From NCBI GenBank assembly GCA_025094145.1, contig JALLLS010000011.1, positions 62,001 through 126,000 on the forward strand: 64,000 bases of DNA. The letters are read 5' to 3'. The DNA comes from Spinellus fusiger (lineage: Eukaryota > Mucoromycota > Mucoromycetes > Mucorales > Phycomycetaceae). Positions 24,262-54,665 of the stretch are shown one piece after another. Made by a program: the position numbers and the translations under genes. The notes beneath the pieces were generated by a model. The model made no database searches, had not been told where the DNA came from, and saw nothing but the letters and a program-made list of their open reading frames with translations. Positions within the stretch are counted from its first letter, which is position 1, and every line of letters starts with the position of its first letter.

Positions 24262-26529
24262 ATGAGTGGAGATAGCAGACAAGAGCCACAGCTTGACACT
24301 ATTTTCATCAAAAATCTCGTGTTAAAGAGTATCACCGGCGTTGATTCTTGGCAAAGACTCAAATCCCAGCCTGTAGTGATCAGTGTATGGTTTTCTACTG
24401 ATGCTACTGCAGCGGGTAATTCCGATATTGTTTCTAATACCATTCACTACGGGCATGTCACCAAGGCCGTCACCAAACTCACAGAAACAACTTCATTTGA
24501 GTCTATATCAGCACTAGGCCATGCTATTCTAAGATTGTGTTGTGTTCACTTTGGTGCTGTTAAGACTACTGTCAGAATTGAGCAGCCGAGAGCACTTTTA
24601 CACGCAGCTGCTTCCGGAGTTCTCCTTAGCAGAGCCAAGGTAGATTTCGAAGGATCTGAGGAGCAGACCTTGGGAAACGTGTCTGGATTAGGAAGAGAAG
24701 ACCAGTTGTTTGTTACAGATCTTCGTCTCTCTACCATTGTTGGTGTGAATCCATGGGAACGTGAAGATAAGCAGGTGGTGGTCATCAACCTGGTTATTTA
24801 CACTTCCCCCCTTGCAGTGGAGACTACCGAAAAAAATAAATCCCACCATTTGCGCACAATTGTCCGTGTCTTGACCCGTCACAGTGAATCCTCAAGCTAC
24901 AAAACAGTAGAGGCCTTTGCTATAGCGATTGCTCGTCTTGCTTTGGATAAGTGCAAGGTTCGAAAGATCCGTGTCTGTATTGAAAAACCGAGTGCTGTTG
25001 CATTTGCTCAGGCAACAGGCATTGATATTACACGTGATGCTTTATGGTTGACACGTATCTTGGAAGAAGAAGCAAAGAGCGGTCTTCATTTTGCTCATCA
25101 TTCTGTTCAAGACAACTGGACTCGAGAAATCCCTGTTCACTTGGAGCACACAGTGTATCTTTCCATTGGCTCCAATACAGGAGACCGTAGAGAGAATATA
25201 CAAGAGGCATTGGGCATGTTGGAAAAAGAAGAAGAATGTTACATTGTCGAGACCAGCTTTCTATATGAGACACCCCCCATGTATGTCGTTCATCAACCTG
25301 CCTTTTTGAATGCTGCATGCAAAATCATGACATGTCTTGATCCCTACACTCTGTTGAAGAAGTTAAAGAGCATTGAAGCTGCCTTGGGAAGAAGCAATGA
25401 GGGCATTCGCAATGGCCCTCGTCCTATTGATCTAGACATCTTGTTCTACAATGACCTCTTGTTAGAGACAGAAACATTAAAAATTCCTCATATTTCCATT
25501 GAAGAACGTGAGTTTGTACTCTGGCCCTTGTGTGATATTGCAAGAGACATGGAGCACCCCAAGCTCTACAGAACATGCGGTCAATTGCTTTCTCAACTGA
25601 TCAAGGCCACGGCTGACTCCAAGACAGGTCCTCTCGAGATCAACAAAGTAATTCCTATGGAAAAGAGTCAAATATGGTTATGGAAAGATAAGACTTATAT
25701 TATGGGTATCCTCAACACAACGCCTGACAGCTTCTCAGATGGTGGTCGGTTTGTGGAGGTAGATACAGCAGTTGCTTTGGCTGAGAGCATGCAAGAACAG
25801 GGAGCCGATATCATTGATATTGGGGGTATGTCGACTCGTCCTGGTGCAGATGAGACCTTCTCAGAAGAAGAAGAGATCCGTCGTGTAGTACCTGTCATTA
25901 AACGCCTAAGAGAAAAGGGATTCACTTTGCCTATTTCTATTGACACTTACAGAGCATCGGTTGCTGAGGCTGCCATCTCAGCAGGAGCCACTCTTATTAA
26001 CGATGTCACTGGAGGTTCTCGGGACCCTAGAATGCTCAGTGTTATGGCCAAATCTAAAGTCCCTGTGTGTTTGATGCATATGCGCGGTGATGCAACCACA
26101 ATGATGTCCAAGGAAAATACAACGTATGAAGATGATGATGTTGTAGAAGATGTGTCTCGTCAGCTTTACTATACAGTGCAGCGTGCTTTGGCAGCTGGCG
26201 TGTATCGCTGGAATATTATTGTGGATCCTGGACTTGGGTTCTCAAAAACATCTCAACAGAGCTTTGAAATTCTGCGTCGGTTATCTGAGATGGTGTCAAA
26301 TCAGGATTCTCTTTTGAACGGATTTCCCTCACTGATGGGTCCTAGTCGTAAGAAGTTCATTGGCAGTGCAACAGGAATTGAAGTAGCAGATCAACGTTCG
26401 TTTGGTACAGCAGGTGCAGTGGCAGCAAGTGTAGCAGGAGGTGCCAATATCATACGTGTACATGATGTACGACCAATGTGGGAAGTGATCCAAGTGTGTG
26501 ATTCTGTTTGGAAACCTACTACAAAGTGA
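24262..26529 (+). CDS. FOL1: Trifunctional folate synthesis enzyme: DHNA aldolase / HPPK / dihydropteroate synthase (755 aa, no introns)
   Basis: Catalyses three successive steps of folate synthesis: dihydroneopterin aldolase, 6-hydroxymethyl-dihydropterin pyrophosphokinase, and dihydropteroate synthase, the target of sulfonamides. Residues about 10-265 hold two tandem FolB-like domains (KNLVLKSITGVDSWQRL; then LSTIVGVNPWEREDKQ). HPPK is about 290-450: VYLSIGSNTGDRRENI, ETPPMYVVHQPAFLNA and GPRPIDLDILFYN. DHPS fills about 475-750: MGILNTTPDSFSDGG, IDIGGMSTRPGA, LINDVTGG, DPGLGFSKTSQQSFEIL, the PSRKKFIG loop, and the terminal ANIIRVHDV. The architecture equals fungal Fol1. It is intronless although nearby genes are intron-rich. 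A hydrophobic N-terminal targeting signal is not evident. Confidence 0.97.
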   Translation: MSGDSRQEPQLDTIFIKNLVLKSITGVDSWQRLKSQPVVISVWFSTDATAAGNSDIVSNTIHYGHVTKAVTKLTETTSFESISALGHAILRLCCVHFGAVKTTVRIEQPRALLHAAASGVLLSRAKVDFEGSEEQTLGNVSGLGREDQLFVTDLRLSTIVGVNPWEREDKQVVVINLVIYTSPLAVETTEKNKSHHLRTIVRVLTRHSESSSYKTVEAFAIAIARLALDKCKVRKIRVCIEKPSAVAFAQATGIDITRDALWLTRILEEEAKSGLHFAHHSVQDNWTREIPVHLEHTVYLSIGSNTGDRRENIQEALGMLEKEEECYIVETSFLYETPPMYVVHQPAFLNAACKIMTCLDPYTLLKKLKSIEAALGRSNEGIRNGPRPIDLDILFYNDLLLETETLKIPHISIEEREFVLWPLCDIARDMEHPKLYRTCGQLLSQLIKATADSKTGPLEINKVIPMEKSQIWLWKDKTYIMGILNTTPDSFSDGGRFVEVDTAVALAESMQEQGADIIDIGGMSTRPGADETFSEEEEIRRVVPVIKRLREKGFTLPISIDTYRASVAEAAISAGATLINDVTGGSRDPRMLSVMAKSKVPVCLMHMRGDATTMMSKENTTYEDDDVVEDVSRQLYYTVQRALAAGVYRWNIIVDPGLGFSKTSQQSFEILRRLSEMVSNQDSLLNGFPSLMGPSRKKFIGSATGIEVADQRSFGTAGAVAASVAGGANIIRVHDVRPMWEVIQVCDSVWKPTTK

Positions 26530-49300: not shown

Positions 49301-50728
49301 ATGGCGATACAGATTCCGTCATGATCAACTTTGGTAGTGATAGTCTTGAAAAAACAATGGAGTTAGGTACGTTTTGTAGATTCTTATGTATATTGCTAAT
49401 GCGTTGATCTATAGGCAGAGATGCTGCAGTGGTAGTTACAAAAGAATTTAAAGATCCTATCAATCTGGAATTCGAGAAAGTGTATTATCCTTACCTACTT
49501 ATTAACAAGAAGCGTTATGCTGGTTTATACTGGACAAACACTGAAAAATATGACAAGCTGGATACAAAGGGCATTGAGGTACGTATATATACATAGATGC
49601 ATAGATGCATCTATAAGAGAAAAGATTGCAGAGTATCTTGCAGTTACTAAAAAGAAATATATAATGTCTTTAGACTGTACGCCGTGATAACTGTCGCTTA
49701 GTATCCAATGTTATTCAAAAGTGTCTTAACAAGCTGCTCATTGAAAAGGATGTTACAGGAGCACAAGAGTAGGTTTTTTCATGTCAAAAGTCAGTCTCAT
49801 AACTATGTTCATGACAGTTTTGTAAAGCATACCATTGCTGATTTGCTGCAAAACCGAATTGATTTGTCACAGCTCGTTATTACCAAAGCATTGAGTAAAA
49901 CAGAATATAAGAGCAAACAGGCACATGTAGAGCTTGCTGCACGTATGAAGAAGCGTGATGCTGGGTCTGCACCTAGTCTTGGAGATCGTGTTGCTTATGT
50001 TATTACAAAGGGAGCCAAAAAAGCAGCAGCCTACGAGCGTTCAGAGGACCCTCTCTATGTACTTGAGAATAACCTTCCTGTGGACACAAACTATTATCTT
50101 GAAAACCAGTTGGCAAATCCCTTGACAAGAATCTTTGAGCCTATCTTGGGTGTTAAACAAACTGAATTGCTATGTAAGCGATAATAATAATGGGTTTCAA
50201 AGAGAGTGTGGGGCGTCTGATATTATTTTACTAGTGAAAGGATCACACACTCGCTCAGTCAGTGTTGCAACACCAACCACTGGATTCATGATGAAGTTTG
50301 TTAAGAAATCTCCGACATGTATTGGTTGCAAGAAGGTTCTGATAAAAGAAGGTAAGTAATAAACACCTTACAACTACTACCTGCTTTGGATAATGTATCT
50401 CATGTAAACTATGCAGAGGTGAAACTAGCCGTATGCAAAGACTGTGAGTCAAAAAAGGGAGAACTCTATATGGATCAGGTAAATAATAATAAAGAATAGA
50501 GAATAATATAGAAAGCTTTACTAAACTCGATATTAGCTGGGTCCTTTAAATGATCTTGAAGTAAAGTACTCGCGGTTATGGACACAATGTCAACGCTGTC
50601 AGGGATCTACCTACAGAGAGGTTATCTGTACGAATAATGATTGCTCTATTTTCTATATGCGCACAAAAACAAAGAAGGATCTAGACAAGGCATCTGCACA
50701 AATTGAACGTTTTTCACATAGCTGGTAG
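46347..50728 (+). CDS. POL3: DNA polymerase delta catalytic subunit (21 exons, 1074 aa)
   Basis: Replicative lagging-strand B-family polymerase with proofreading. Exons: 46347-46524, 46609-46680, 46725-46804, 46845-46958, 47015-47263, 47335-47423, 47467-47627, 47681-47808, 47862-47976, 48026-48196, 48247-48528, 48590-48796, 48848-48999, 49058-49174, 49243-49366, 49415-49578, 49674-49768, 49818-50173, 50235-50351, 50417-50478, 50537-50728; the sum is 3225 nt in frame. The exonuclease has LSFDIECAG (Exo I) and [13 protein letters not shown] (Exo II). Polymerase motifs: [19 protein letters not shown] (A), [12 protein letters not shown] (B, with its Lys ending the previous exon), IYGDTDSVM (C), and KKRYAGLYW. 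Two C-terminal Cys clusters follow: CIGCKKVL with VCKDC (CysA, zinc) and CQRCQG with CTNNDC (CysB, Fe-S, binds the B subunit). The N-terminus is basic with TKRTKHK, a likely nuclear signal. The length is near yeast Pol3. Confidence 0.96.
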
Positions 50729-51106
50729 TTTTTATATGATCTTTTTTATCTTGATAAATAATGTATTTTAAAATGAATAAATAAAAGAAGTGTAGTTTTC
50801 ATCGCAAAGCCTCTTACTGGTTAGCATCGCTTATTTCGAATAATAATAATAATTATTATTATTATTTACTTGTCTTTTCTATACTGCTATCGTCTCTTGG
50901 ATAGTCATAAGGTGCAATGTGAAAATAGTAACAAACATCCCCCAAAAAAAGAAGAAAAAAGAAAGAAAAAAGAAAGAAAAAAGAAAAAAAAAGGATACTT
51001 TGGTATACTCCTACTAGACATTATAATGTCTTTTGCATTACAGAATCCAATAAGACACACTTCATTATTCTCTAGATAGTTTACCTGTATCATGGGTTTC
51101 TGTCAG
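50729..51106. other. POL3 3' flank, simple repeats
   Basis: Contains an AATAAT/ATTATT palindromic run (about 50838-50866) and an A-rich GAAAAAAG run (about 50942-50992). No gene. Confidence 0.55.
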
Positions 51107-51850
51107 TTAGTCAACCGAGGCTCCAATGATAATTAGGGAAGAGAAGGATGGGGATGAACCAGAAGGCTTGAACCTTTTACTGGTTCTAATTGTATCATTT
51201 TTGTTGTGCTTTCTTTTGTTATATCTACAAAAGTGCTCTGGGCGGGTACCATTTTCCCTTTGAGACATTAGAATATGTCCAAAGGTCAATGTAGCATCTA
51301 TATCACGATTCCAAAGCCTCAATGTCTTGTCTTTCATACAATTTTGGCTTGAACACCTATTTGAAGGGAGAAAAATAAGTATTTGTCTTTTGTTTCTGTT
51401 TGATGTAGCTTAAGCTAGCTCTTCAATAGATTCAATGTTGTCTCTATCAATAGGTGCTTTGCGACTACCACACGAGGAACGTTTCGATATAAAGTTTTGC
51501 TTGACTACCGACACTGACACACTATTGGTTTCTATTGTACTTTGACATCTCATTGACTCATCTATACCTTGATTTTTGAACACCTTTGATGTTAAATTGA
51601 CGACATGACCCCAAAGATCAAACTTTTCGCCCGTGTAGCTCTTGTTTTTTAAGGTGTGGTAGCTGAGTATCTTGGTGTCTATCGTAATGAGAAAAGGAAA
51701 GAAGTTTTTACAAAGTGAGAAACAACTAAAAGATTTGTTTCCATTTTCTTTGTATAGTTGGACCGGCTTAGCAAATATGTCTATGTGCTTGGTTGGATTG
51801 GCTTTAACATCATAATAGATAGAGTCACATACATACATACATACATACAT
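51107..51850 (-). pseudogene. Fanzor (eukaryotic TnpB-like RNA-guided nuclease) remnant, internally deleted
   Basis: Two minus-strand blocks resemble the two ends of Fanzor proteins. The N-terminal block (51850-51410) has FSLCKNFFPFLITIDT, a segment like the 'FPLxxxxxPxxIxIDT' entry of the family, a KVFKNQG piece, then STIETNSVSVSVVKQNF, where intact members usually read TDG. It ends in IESIEELA just where the RuvC-I aspartate region should begin. After a frame change and about 40 nt, the C-terminal block (about 51370-51107) reads CSSQNC, LWNRDIDATLTFGHILM and NGTRPEHFCR, corresponding to the second zinc-ribbon pair and the NRDxNA RuvC-III block. Everything between, including RuvC-I, RuvC-II and the first CxxC, is missing. 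The start merges into a CATA microsatellite. TnpB relatives use a guide RNA to cut DNA; this copy cannot. Family assignment is from recalled motif patterns, not a search. Confidence 0.7.
51831..51850. repeat. CATA tetranucleotide run
   Basis: Five CATA units at the 5' border of the Fanzor remnant, giving a spurious Met-Tyr-Val-Cys start when translated. Confidence 0.9.
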
Positions 51851-51899
51851 ATATTTATATATTTATATATAGCAAATCTATAACTGAGAAGATAGTAGG

Positions 51900-52085
51900 C
51901 TAGCAGGTCTTGTACTTAACTAATGGCCTTTTTGTTCAATAAATCTATGGGTGCATTGGGAACAGCGTTTGTCGAGATATCGAGTTTGATTTGTGTGCAT
52001 ATATCCAACACATTTAATGTGATCATATTTACAATGATTATATTTACAACAGTTTGTATATCTATTTTGAAGACGGTTCACTAAA
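51900..52085 (-). pseudogene. Cys-rich peptide remnant upstream of the Fanzor block
   Basis: The minus strand reads YTNCCKYNHCKYDHIKC, then RYLDKRCSQCTHRFIEQ and a stop. Six or more Cys and several His are spaced as in zinc-binding peptides. It lies on the same strand and just upstream of the Fanzor remnant, from which it is separated by stops and the CATA run, so it may be its N-terminal or an accessory piece. No family recognised. Confidence 0.35.
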
Positions 52086-52142
52086 AAAAGGTTATTGGGT
52101 ATATAATTAGGATGAACCTACTTGTTCAAGAAAGTGTGAATA

Positions 52143-52905
52143 CAGCCACACTCAATTGAATTGAATACCTTTGAATATAAATATCAGGACAAAACTGATA
52201 GGACATTTCCAACATTAAATGAAACACTTCACATTTGATCTATAAGCATTAAACTTAAGCTCAACAAAGCTTAGTATCTTTAATTATAGAAAATAGAATA
52301 ATAATACAGTTAATATTTTGTATAGCCTTTTTTGGCATCAATGACATCCTGGCATGTGTCCGTCATAGTCAGAACTAATTATTGGTTTACAGTGCGATCA
52401 ACAACGACTAATGGGCCAAATACATTAGCCTAACAACAGCTCCAAAACAACACACTATCGCCACAAGACTACATTATTGTGACAATAGGATTATAACTAT
52501 AACGTTCTCTGACTATTTTAATGACACAAGCATCTACATTGTTTCCTTTCATAATGTATGTTGACTCATCAGACTAAATGATACCTCTCTACTGGTCGTT
52601 TGTTCAGTTGACATGTTTTTTAGCCCAACAAAGCTGTTTCTCTTTATGTTTTGCAGTCAAGGCCAGAGTGTGATTTACATAGAAAGATCCATACCCTAAC
52701 TGATTGCAGTAGCTGATAAGGGTGTTTCTACATACATCCACCTCAAACTTCAATATTTATAATTTCAGTTGATGCTATAGGGCAAATAGACCCTTTCTAA
52801 TGACCCTTTTCAGGTGTCTAAGGGTCCCTCTCATTCACTTTTTTGTGTTTTCATGACTCTCCAAATGTAATAGTGATCCATACTCTTTGATGTTTCTAAT
52901 ATAAA
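52143..52905 (-). mobile_element. Tc1/mariner copy, sister of the 4216 element, 5' end lost
   Basis: It starts with CAGCCACACTCAATTGAATT after TA (52141-52142), almost identical to the terminus at 4216. Similarity continues through the body (for example the block around 52630-52740 against 4450-4560) and ends near 52905. Unlike the 4216 copy it retains 52380-52610, whose minus strand reads FSDESTYIMKGNNVDACVIK and PIVTIM, the first catalytic block of a Tc1 transposase. Multiple stops are present. The opposite terminal repeat is not found. Confidence 0.8.
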
Positions 52906-53127: not shown

Positions 53128-54665
53128 TTAGTCTCGATCTCTGTGATTATCATGGAGCTATTTAGACATAAATAAAATAAAAACATGTTAGATTAGGTAA
53201 TCCCAAGAATTATTGATTTAATTTACCTCGAACATAGCAGAGGCAAATTCTGTTATAGGCTTATCAATCCATCGTGAAGTCTTTAGAGTGTTTTCAAACC
53301 ACCCCAAATGCCCACCATACTGTGTCGTAGCCAATATGACATAGGGATTAAGCTTAACTTCGTCATAGGGTATACTTTCAGGCAAGGAGATAGGGTCATC
53401 AAGCGCATTGATACATAATAATGGAATGCGAACTTTTTCGATAGACTGAAAACAACTAGCACTCCTATAATAGTTTGATACAGTCGTGTAACCTCGCATT
53501 TTACGAGTCAACTCCTGGTCATACTCTCGAATGAAGTTGGCACTCTTCACTTTGTCGTGATCGATATCTCTTCTTCTCTTTATTCCTTTGGATTGCCTGA
53601 AAGGTTAATTTCGAATTTAGAGAGGGTAGTGCTTACTTTTCATATATGGACTTTAAATTCTTTACAATCACAGCAGAATATACTTTACTTGACACTGTGT
53701 TTTCTTCTGATCTCAAAATTGTGCTGTGGCCAGTTGATAAATATTTATATAAAAAATGATTTAAAGCTTACATAAGTAGATCGAAAGGATTGGCTATGGA
53801 GATGGCAGCCTTAAGAGGAGTGTTCTCTTCTTCCTCACCTAAATACTAACAAAATGAGAAAGACTAACAAAGACCACGTACTTACTTTAACTAGGATATT
53901 TGAACCAGCCGAAAATCCTATACCTATCAAAGGTGTTCCTGGTGCCAATTTCTCTTCAATGTACTGAATGACCTCTTTTAAGTCATCTGTATCTGCACAA
54001 CTAGTAATTCTTGGTGTAGTAATTTCTACATCACCACATCCCCGTGAATTTAAGATTACACATCTGTAGTTGTAGGGCTCTTGATTTAACTAACATTAAC
54101 ATTAACACTAATATATTTATACATAGATATTTGCTTAGGATGAATAGATTATATTACCTTTGACACAACATCAATGATGTAAGATTCTTTGCTGTTTCCT
54201 GTCAGTCCATGTAAAAATATAATTGTTGGTGTATCATCATTTTCATGAGAAGTGGAGGGTGAACACCAGTCCAGTGCAATTTTTCCACCATCTGACAAAA
54301 TTATAAGCTCTCTAAATAATGTGAGTTTTTGTTTTGTTTTTGTTTAAATATAAACCTTACCTTTCGTATTGAACTTTGGAGATACATTCAGAAGCAAAAA
54401 GAGTGGAAAACCCTGTCTGTAAATGGCCATTAAATAGATAGGGTGTTGGATAAAAGACAGCTTTTGGTCCAATGAGTGATGGGCATTTCTTTCTAAGAAG
54501 GTCGACAAATCGAATTTTTCGAGCCTTCGAGCTTTTCAAAAGAATTTCTATTGGAGATGGATCGTAGTGTATCCTTACTCCACATACAAGTGAGAAAAGA
54601 TAAATGAAAACAGTAAGGATAATGAGTATCAGAATTAGGAAATAAATTAAATAAATCGACTCCAT
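53128..54665 (-). CDS. Alpha/beta hydrolase, ABHD1/3 (YMR210w/EHT1-EEB1) family (6 exons, 378 aa)
   Basis: A membrane-anchored esterase/lipase family member. Exons: 54665-54361, 54311-54158, 54089-53886, 53845-53772, 53596-53227, 53157-53128. If the last intron is not spliced, translation stops at 53218 with FEVN and 371 residues. Residues about 3-28 are one hydrophobic anchor (YLIYFLILILIILTVFIYLF). The family lead-in CPSLIGPKAVFYPTPYLFNG and HLQTGFSTLFAS is present. The oxyanion segment is IIFLHGLTGNSKESYI. The nucleophile is Ser in GIGFSAGSNILVKYLG. The acid is Asp in LCINALDDPISLP and the base His in GGHLGWFE, completing the triad. The family includes acyltransferases and esterases of medium-chain ester and phospholipid metabolism; substrate is not deducible. 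Confidence 0.9.

Follow-up and report, generated by a model that had tools for sequence, protein, structure and literature searches.

A degraded Fanzor1 element that very probably belongs to an internally deleted, non-autonomous class of copies in a Mucorales-type genome

The window (the whole stretch of 64,000 nucleotides that we analysed; C13:62001-126000, from a genome of 38 Mb in 197 contigs) contains a degraded Fanzor1 element on the minus strand at 51012-52901. The element is a relic of a fungal transposon that formerly encoded Fanzor, an RNA-guided DNA cutter. A sequence-only reading of this DNA had marked a Fanzor fossil at 51107..52085, and the element is longer than that. Its right end is sharp: at 51012..51030 there is a palindrome, GACATTATAATGTC, followed by TAGTA (an exact match is listed at C13:113012-113030), and the homology of most copies to the window stops at 51011-51013 (for L010, L011, and L013, at 51002). 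Between this end and the Fanzor stop codon lies a 3' non-coding segment (51012..51106), the candidate place of an omega or fRNA scaffold. Next comes a C-terminal Fanzor piece (51107..51356, in frame 51107-51409) with the second cysteine pair of the zinc finger (CSSQNC), the RuvC-III NRD, and the tail; the same frame reads LWNRDIDATLTF and NGTRPEHF. This piece matches L042 at 95% and L043 at 77%, and the same segment closes the longer copies of the element. By junction alignment to those longer copies, 51357..51380 is a remnant of the 3' part of an intron, with an acceptor (..TTCAAATAG) that the longer copies also have. The deletion junction is at 51380..51381, give or take a few bases, and about 0.74 kb are gone there (L032 1954-2696, L032 being one of the longer copies).

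Beyond the junction, still on the minus strand, is the middle Fanzor piece (51381..51835), which runs up to RuvC-I and in which TDG has become TNS; FFPFLITIDT and STIETNSVSVSVVKQNF are read in its frame, 51410-51862. A piece of the REC region (51916..52036) is in another frame (LNVLDICTQIKLDISTNAVPNAPIDLLNKKAIS). Its proper frame, 51916-52077, reads LNVLDICTQIKLDIST... and was compared with the frame of L032; the DNA homology of the window to the longer copies starts at about 52036. The 5' region of the element (52044..52139) matches the 5' regions of L045, L053, L055, and L057-L059. The "Cys-rich" peptide at 51900-52085, which had been proposed as a further piece of the protein, comes from translating Fanzor-coding DNA and this 5' region in a wrong frame. 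Finally, 52140..52901 is a nested and partly deleted Tc1/mariner-like relic. Because homology to the closest relatives, L010 and L011, stops at 52901, the window copy has lost its own left end.

The copy had been thought to lie in an island of mobile elements, and we find no such island next to it. On one side, about 280 bp from the element, is the 3' part of a host DNA polymerase delta gene (49708-50728; zf-C4pol, E 1.3e-13; DNA_pol_B, E 6.9e-30). On the other side is a frame that ends near 53218; by eye it resembles an alpha/beta hydrolase, and it has no Pfam matches. Simple repeats rich in A/T and AAAG (50840-50995) adjoin the right end. Elsewhere in the window, 24262-26529 is one open frame of 755 codons with FolB, HPPK, and Pterin_bind (i.e., a folate-synthesis fusion gene).

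Judging from its sequence, the window copy goes back to a Fanzor1 gene, a relative of Fanzor 1 of Parasitella parasitica. Among proteins with solved structures, the middle piece (block 1) matches Parasitella Fanzor 1 (PDB 9cf0, residues 737-870 of the fusion) with E 1.9e-31 and the Spizellomyces Fanzor 1, SpuFz1 (8gkh), with E 1.4e-7. The peptides that had been named on the minus strand are present where they were said to be, they go far beyond chance, and the description of a Fanzor fossil holds. The 663-residue frame of L032 matches the same two proteins with E 4.1e-159 and 7.1e-43. It also has 78 related proteins (7997 candidates scored), of which the best, from Pilaira anomala, is 49% identical; we take the named sources of these homologues to be Mucorales and other early-diverging fungi. 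On this ground the source of the window is probably a member of the Mucorales. The C-terminal piece (block 2) does less by itself. Its match to Parasitella Fanzor 1 (E 0.012) ranks under chance matches to WD40 proteins, which are due to the short string DKTLRLWNRD and in which no stretch passes alone, and BLASTP gave no match to the Pilaira protein (E 0.13), whose record stops before the last exon. The identity of block 2 is nevertheless secured, because the same segment closes the longer copies, whose L032 frame matches Parasitella Fanzor 1.

Plain profiles would have led us astray. Pfam has no matches on three pieces of the window, and NCBIfam has nothing on them except pyrC (E 0.072, on block 2), which is noise; on that basis alone the Fanzor claim would wrongly have been rejected. 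The sequence-only reading had proposed a search with Fanzor1, Fanzor2, and OrfB_Zn_ribbon profiles and would have given up the claim for want of a profile hit; in Pfam and NCBIfam the hit was indeed wanting, which is misleading. We take this as a warning: clear Fanzor1 fossils can escape the profiles of Pfam and NCBIfam. In the genome, PF07282 has at least 147 matches above the cut-off among the best 150 scored of 457 candidates. The best of these, L001-L008, are a second Fanzor-like family of short frames with CHTC..CQSCGIVWNRDVNASKNI. They differ from the family of the window copy: four proteins of the latter had no tblastn match on them at 1e-3, while all four matched the control L032.

The longer relatives show what the window copy has lost. 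The TDG motif, which is assigned to RuvC-I by alignment and which we take to have a catalytic role, is found in all 13 longer copies. Longer relatives align to the window as far as 51381, break off, and pick up again either at 51380 or no more than about 12 bp away. The deletion amounts to about 741 bp, from just past RuvC-I (L032 1954) into an apparent intron before the last exon (2696). In the longer copies, the frames imply this intron, with the acceptor ahead of the CSNQNC exon. The RuvC core went with this deletion, as did the CPEC half of the zinc finger, so the claim that the catalytic middle had been removed is correct. Also, the first ~190 codons of the relatives' frame are gone, and FFPFLITIDT, once read as the N-terminal entry, sits near residue 290 of L032's 663-residue frame. 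The window copy cannot produce a nuclease. The Fanzor1 motif, D-X(125,275)-[TS][TS]-X-X-[C4 zinc finger]-X(5,50)-RD, is given by Bao and Jurka 2013 (PMC3627910). In L032, the D of TDG is at 346 and TSSLCPEC is at 595, 248 residues apart, and CSNQNC and NRD are in the last exon. The window copy has TNS, has neither TSS nor CPEC, and keeps CSSQNC and NRD. Because its longer relatives fit the motif and it does not, it is a remnant rather than a working member.

The same deletion is found at many other places. The two protein blocks have 140 and at least 150 scored matches in the genome. A DNA query of 1,301 bases gave at least 64 matched segments from the best 40 scored of 771 candidates, so these counts are lower bounds. 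Of the 40 scored matches, 21 cross the deletion point uninterrupted, 18 break there, and 1 (C1:600053) covers the 3' side only. Sixteen of the broken matches restart after 725-762 bp; the others are a copy on C141, which restarts after 256 bp, and one on C110, which restarts after 685 bp and lacks part of the query. We call the copies with the deletion class A. In all 13 that we aligned (of the 21 crossing matches), the junction is the same, and these 13 loci have 11 distinct right flanks. Three of them (L010, L011, and L013) share a flank, so some of the copying was segmental.

The change from TDG to TNS, which had also been noticed from the sequence, is a feature of the window's subclade. 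All five copies of the subclade (the window and four of four others) have TNS, at three distinct right flanks, while six of the seven other class A copies have TDG (L014 has TNG). This argues that class A spread after it was inactivated. In a 25-row tree built from the 5' segment, the 12 class A rows require 2 label changes, as compared to 8.7 in shuffles; they form two groups, and a tree that holds them together as one clade is not rejected (p-AU 0.68). The tree of the 3' segment is more mixed (label changes: A, 4; B, 5; F, 8), so gene conversion between copies contributed. Two class A copies lie 7.7 kb apart on C137 (127369-129888 and 135070-137589; L020, L019, L128, and L129). L019 and L020 share 2,520 bp at 99.4% identity that stop exactly at the right end, and their right flanks differ. 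We do not count them as a recent transposition: the left boundary is not clean, and gene conversion is equally likely.

Three further deletion classes share their right end with class A. Class B removes about 828-2483 of L032 (L045, L048, L053, L055, L057-L060, L066, and L074), class C removes about 677-2899 (L067 and L070), and class D removes 554-2956 (L079). L079 is a whole element of just 1.13 kb, with both ends.

The left end, TTACTGAAAAATCACYTTTTAAGAAGGGYYAATC, is found at 68 places within 3 mismatches (0 for a reversed-pattern control). The right end, GAYATTATAATRTCTAGTR, has 406 matches within 2 mismatches (control, 31), which stand for fewer than 406 places, because fully palindromic ends match both strands and are counted twice. 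In the loci examined, the left side carries no inverted version of the right end, i.e., there is no terminal inverted repeat; "+" matches in that search are the palindrome itself or loci on the opposite strand. Target duplications are rare. L010 and L060 are complete at both ends and have, outside these, repeats of 10-11 bp (TAGAAATATA and TAGTTATGTAA, respectively), which were found by searching for a duplication. Among 20 end pairs chosen blind to repeats, 1 (on C137, 7 bp) exceeds the null, which has a maximum of 6 bp in 380 mismatched pairs. The left and right flanks are asymmetric. TATATAA is present within one mismatch in 21 of 27 distinct left flanks, and 35 of 55 distinct right flanks have ACT at offset 5-9 (in 2000 shuffles the mean was 5.3 and the highest count 14; a control stretch within the same flanks gave 7). 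Movement by a recombinase or by a single-strand mechanism is possible. At about 1532-1580 of L083, a right end and a left end meet with almost nothing between them, in tail-to-head order, as GATATTAT-TATATAATTACTG. This joint is perhaps a tandem, or perhaps one element was inserted in another's palindrome.

Given all this, we think it very probable that the window copy is an inert, decayed member of class A, and that class A is an internally deleted, non-autonomous form of a Fanzor1-bearing element in a Mucorales-type genome. As in other non-autonomous derivatives, class A copies have the ends of the longer copies, a shared internal deletion, and distinct sites; the window copy itself has the right end only. 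A single deletion of about 0.74 kb, from past RuvC-I into the apparent intron, removed the nuclease core, and class A is a MITE-like derivative that multiplied after the nuclease was lost, presumably in trans. A transposase or recombinase that is encoded elsewhere and that recognises both ends would have moved the deleted copies. Multiplication after the loss suggests that the Fanzor nuclease is not needed in cis for movement.

Our search for the mobilising enzyme among MULE, GCR1_C, integrase, and DUF3435 did not find it. Of the 27 MULE matches, not one lies 10 kb or less from any of the listed left ends. Tyrosine recombinase (YR) families are almost absent from the genome, with one degraded GCR1_C match and one sub-threshold integrase match, in a six-frame search that could miss divergent recombinases. 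DUF3435 has 0 matches in the genome, in a search with no positive control match. We noticed no tyrosine recombinase, which would be a Crypton trait, within the elements that we read. The element does not look like a MuDR-type element with 9-bp duplications and terminal inverted repeats either, as duplications are rare and an inverted end copy was not found.

The 3' segment raises an alternative. Its last ~120 nt have 88% mean column identity across 37 copies, and at least about 115 bp of the 3' end are kept in all four of the deletion classes that we read. The deleted copies might therefore be kept as "ghost" loci whose guide RNAs arm a Fanzor from elsewhere, with the 3' segment selected as RNA. 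According to Saito 2023 (PMC10432273), the published ghost Spu-1 loci retain the omegaRNA region. The terminal palindrome also covaries: in 37 aligned copies, 96.8% of cells are paired, and 14 are changed on both sides, as against 4.2 in shuffles (we named this pairing after the palindrome had been seen). On the other hand, a mobilisation end would give the same retention of the 3' end. The stability of the 120-nt fold is not above that of shuffles (z -0.55), in the consensus fold (-4.87 kcal/mol) a single pair out of 22 has changes on both sides, and Rfam has no match above threshold and one at chance level (E 0.9). The sequence-only reading had suggested looking for a structured RNA at the 3' end of intact copies. 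In the copies aligned here the 3' end is conserved and its palindrome covaries, but the rest of the fold is weak, and evidence for a structured RNA is confined to the terminal palindrome. A guide RNA from the 3' segment is possible. The retained segment could be a mobilisation end or a guide RNA for a trans-acting Fanzor, and a mobilisation end would be simpler. We consider selection as ghost loci to be unlikely, with a modest chance of being right. As a separate observation, the palindrome at the right end of L012 (1501-1520) is GATAGTACACTATC, in which pairing is kept by change on both sides relative to GATATTATAATATC.

A fuller scheme would combine both ideas: a recombinase or single-strand movement would act via a core of AGTA, about 6 bp, and TACT, to which the flank counts above relate, and the Fanzor-less derivatives would be guide-RNA loci that arm a Fanzor from elsewhere, with the host flank as the guide. 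We are doubtful of this combination and would give it a small chance.

Could the truncated protein itself be useful? Class A might encode a truncated, nuclease-dead Fanzor that is maintained as a repressor or dominant negative, a role that KP has for the P element and TldR for TnpB. In three class A copies (one on C114 and two on C137), a frame of 412 residues is open to and beyond RuvC-I. But several other class A copies have stops or frame changes, and the window's subclade has lost TDG. Also, singletons are spread evenly over codon positions 1/2/3 in 12 class A copies (45/45/51), and by this crude test neither class A nor the 13 longer copies (43/35/29) show recent coding constraint. A maintained repressor is therefore quite improbable.

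The longer copies are in poor condition as well. None of the 13 is unbroken across both exons (a reading of last exons that excludes L025, L026, L027, and L029, whose last exons were not located). In 10 of the 13, there are stops or frame changes within the first 612 residues. L032 and L038 have 612 residues open and damage at or in the last exon, while L039 is gapped internally and its last exon is damaged. It had been suggested that intact copies may exist elsewhere in this genome; relatives do exist in number, but none of these longer ones is free of breaks.

The Tc1/mariner-like relic next to the Fanzor sequence in the window, L010, L026, L080, and other copies could mean that a Tc1-like transposase just upstream moved the two as a composite. 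However, L078 and L079 contain both flanks of the relic without the relic itself, and a relic peptide has at least 150 matches in the genome (from the best 150 scored of 1,627 candidates), so we view the relic as a later passenger. It is internal to the element, whose ends, as read by eye, do not carry the relic's inverted repeat. Pfam support for the relic is weak (Tc3-type HTH, E 0.07-0.09), and a 30-bp inverted repeat (93%) in the copy of the relic on C127 supports it. An "insert" in the relic that we considered as a left end of the Fanzor element is transposase DNA that is absent from the window. We consider a Tc1 composite to be very improbable.

Similarly, the window's broken frames, absent first ~190 codons, and lost left end might be expected of a single Fanzor copy that decayed in place with a private deletion, but a junction shared by 13 of 13 copies at 11 distinct right flanks refutes this, and we give it almost no weight.

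If class A is indeed a non-autonomous derivative, then some hundreds of right-end matches and several deletion classes amount to a natural experiment on what Fanzor does for its transposon. These loci could be used to test for action in trans, for guide RNAs from the 3' end, and for the mobilising enzyme.

How does this family compare to known systems? We did not find the present element described in the open-licence papers on Fanzors and non-autonomous elements that we surveyed. The closest characterised protein is Parasitella parasitica Fanzor 1 (PDB 9cf0-9cf3), which is of the same Fanzor1 lineage and which, according to a 2024 study in Cell, cuts DNA with an ATN TAM (PMC11423790). Unlike it, the window copy has TNS in place of TDG, and it is missing the first ~190 codons of its relatives' frame, the RuvC core, and also the first cysteine pair of the zinc finger. 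From Mucor circinelloides, PMC3627910 describes MCi-2 (a Fanzor1 element with no inverted repeats, fuzzy 5' ends, 11-12-bp duplications, 11 copies, and a partial Crypton transposase) and MCi-4 (MuDR-like, with 9-bp duplications). MCi-2, MCi-4, and MCi-5 are Fanzor1 elements of a Mucorales fungus, and, as compared by description, one of them may be equal to the present element. The same text describes the Chlamydomonas elements CRe-1, -2, and -3 as Fanzor1 Helitron2 elements with internal deletions, 5' truncation, constant 3' ends, a 3' hairpin, and duplications in some copies. They share internal deletions and constant 3' ends with the present family. However, their ends are in common with known Helitrons, while here the CTAG-type 3' end and hairpin are only reminiscent of those.

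The ghost Spu-1 loci of Spizellomyces punctatus are likewise Fanzor-less derivatives that keep their ends: in Saito 2023 (PMC10432273), 134 loci without Fanzor are compared to 42 with full or partial genes, and both ends and the 3' segment are kept. Spu-1 carries inverted repeats of 30 nt, and its omegaRNA has been demonstrated; in the present family no such repeats were found, a guide RNA is a possibility, and there are several deletion classes. The present family adds another case to the Fanzor derivatives already known, and it stands out for its copy number and its recurring deletion classes.
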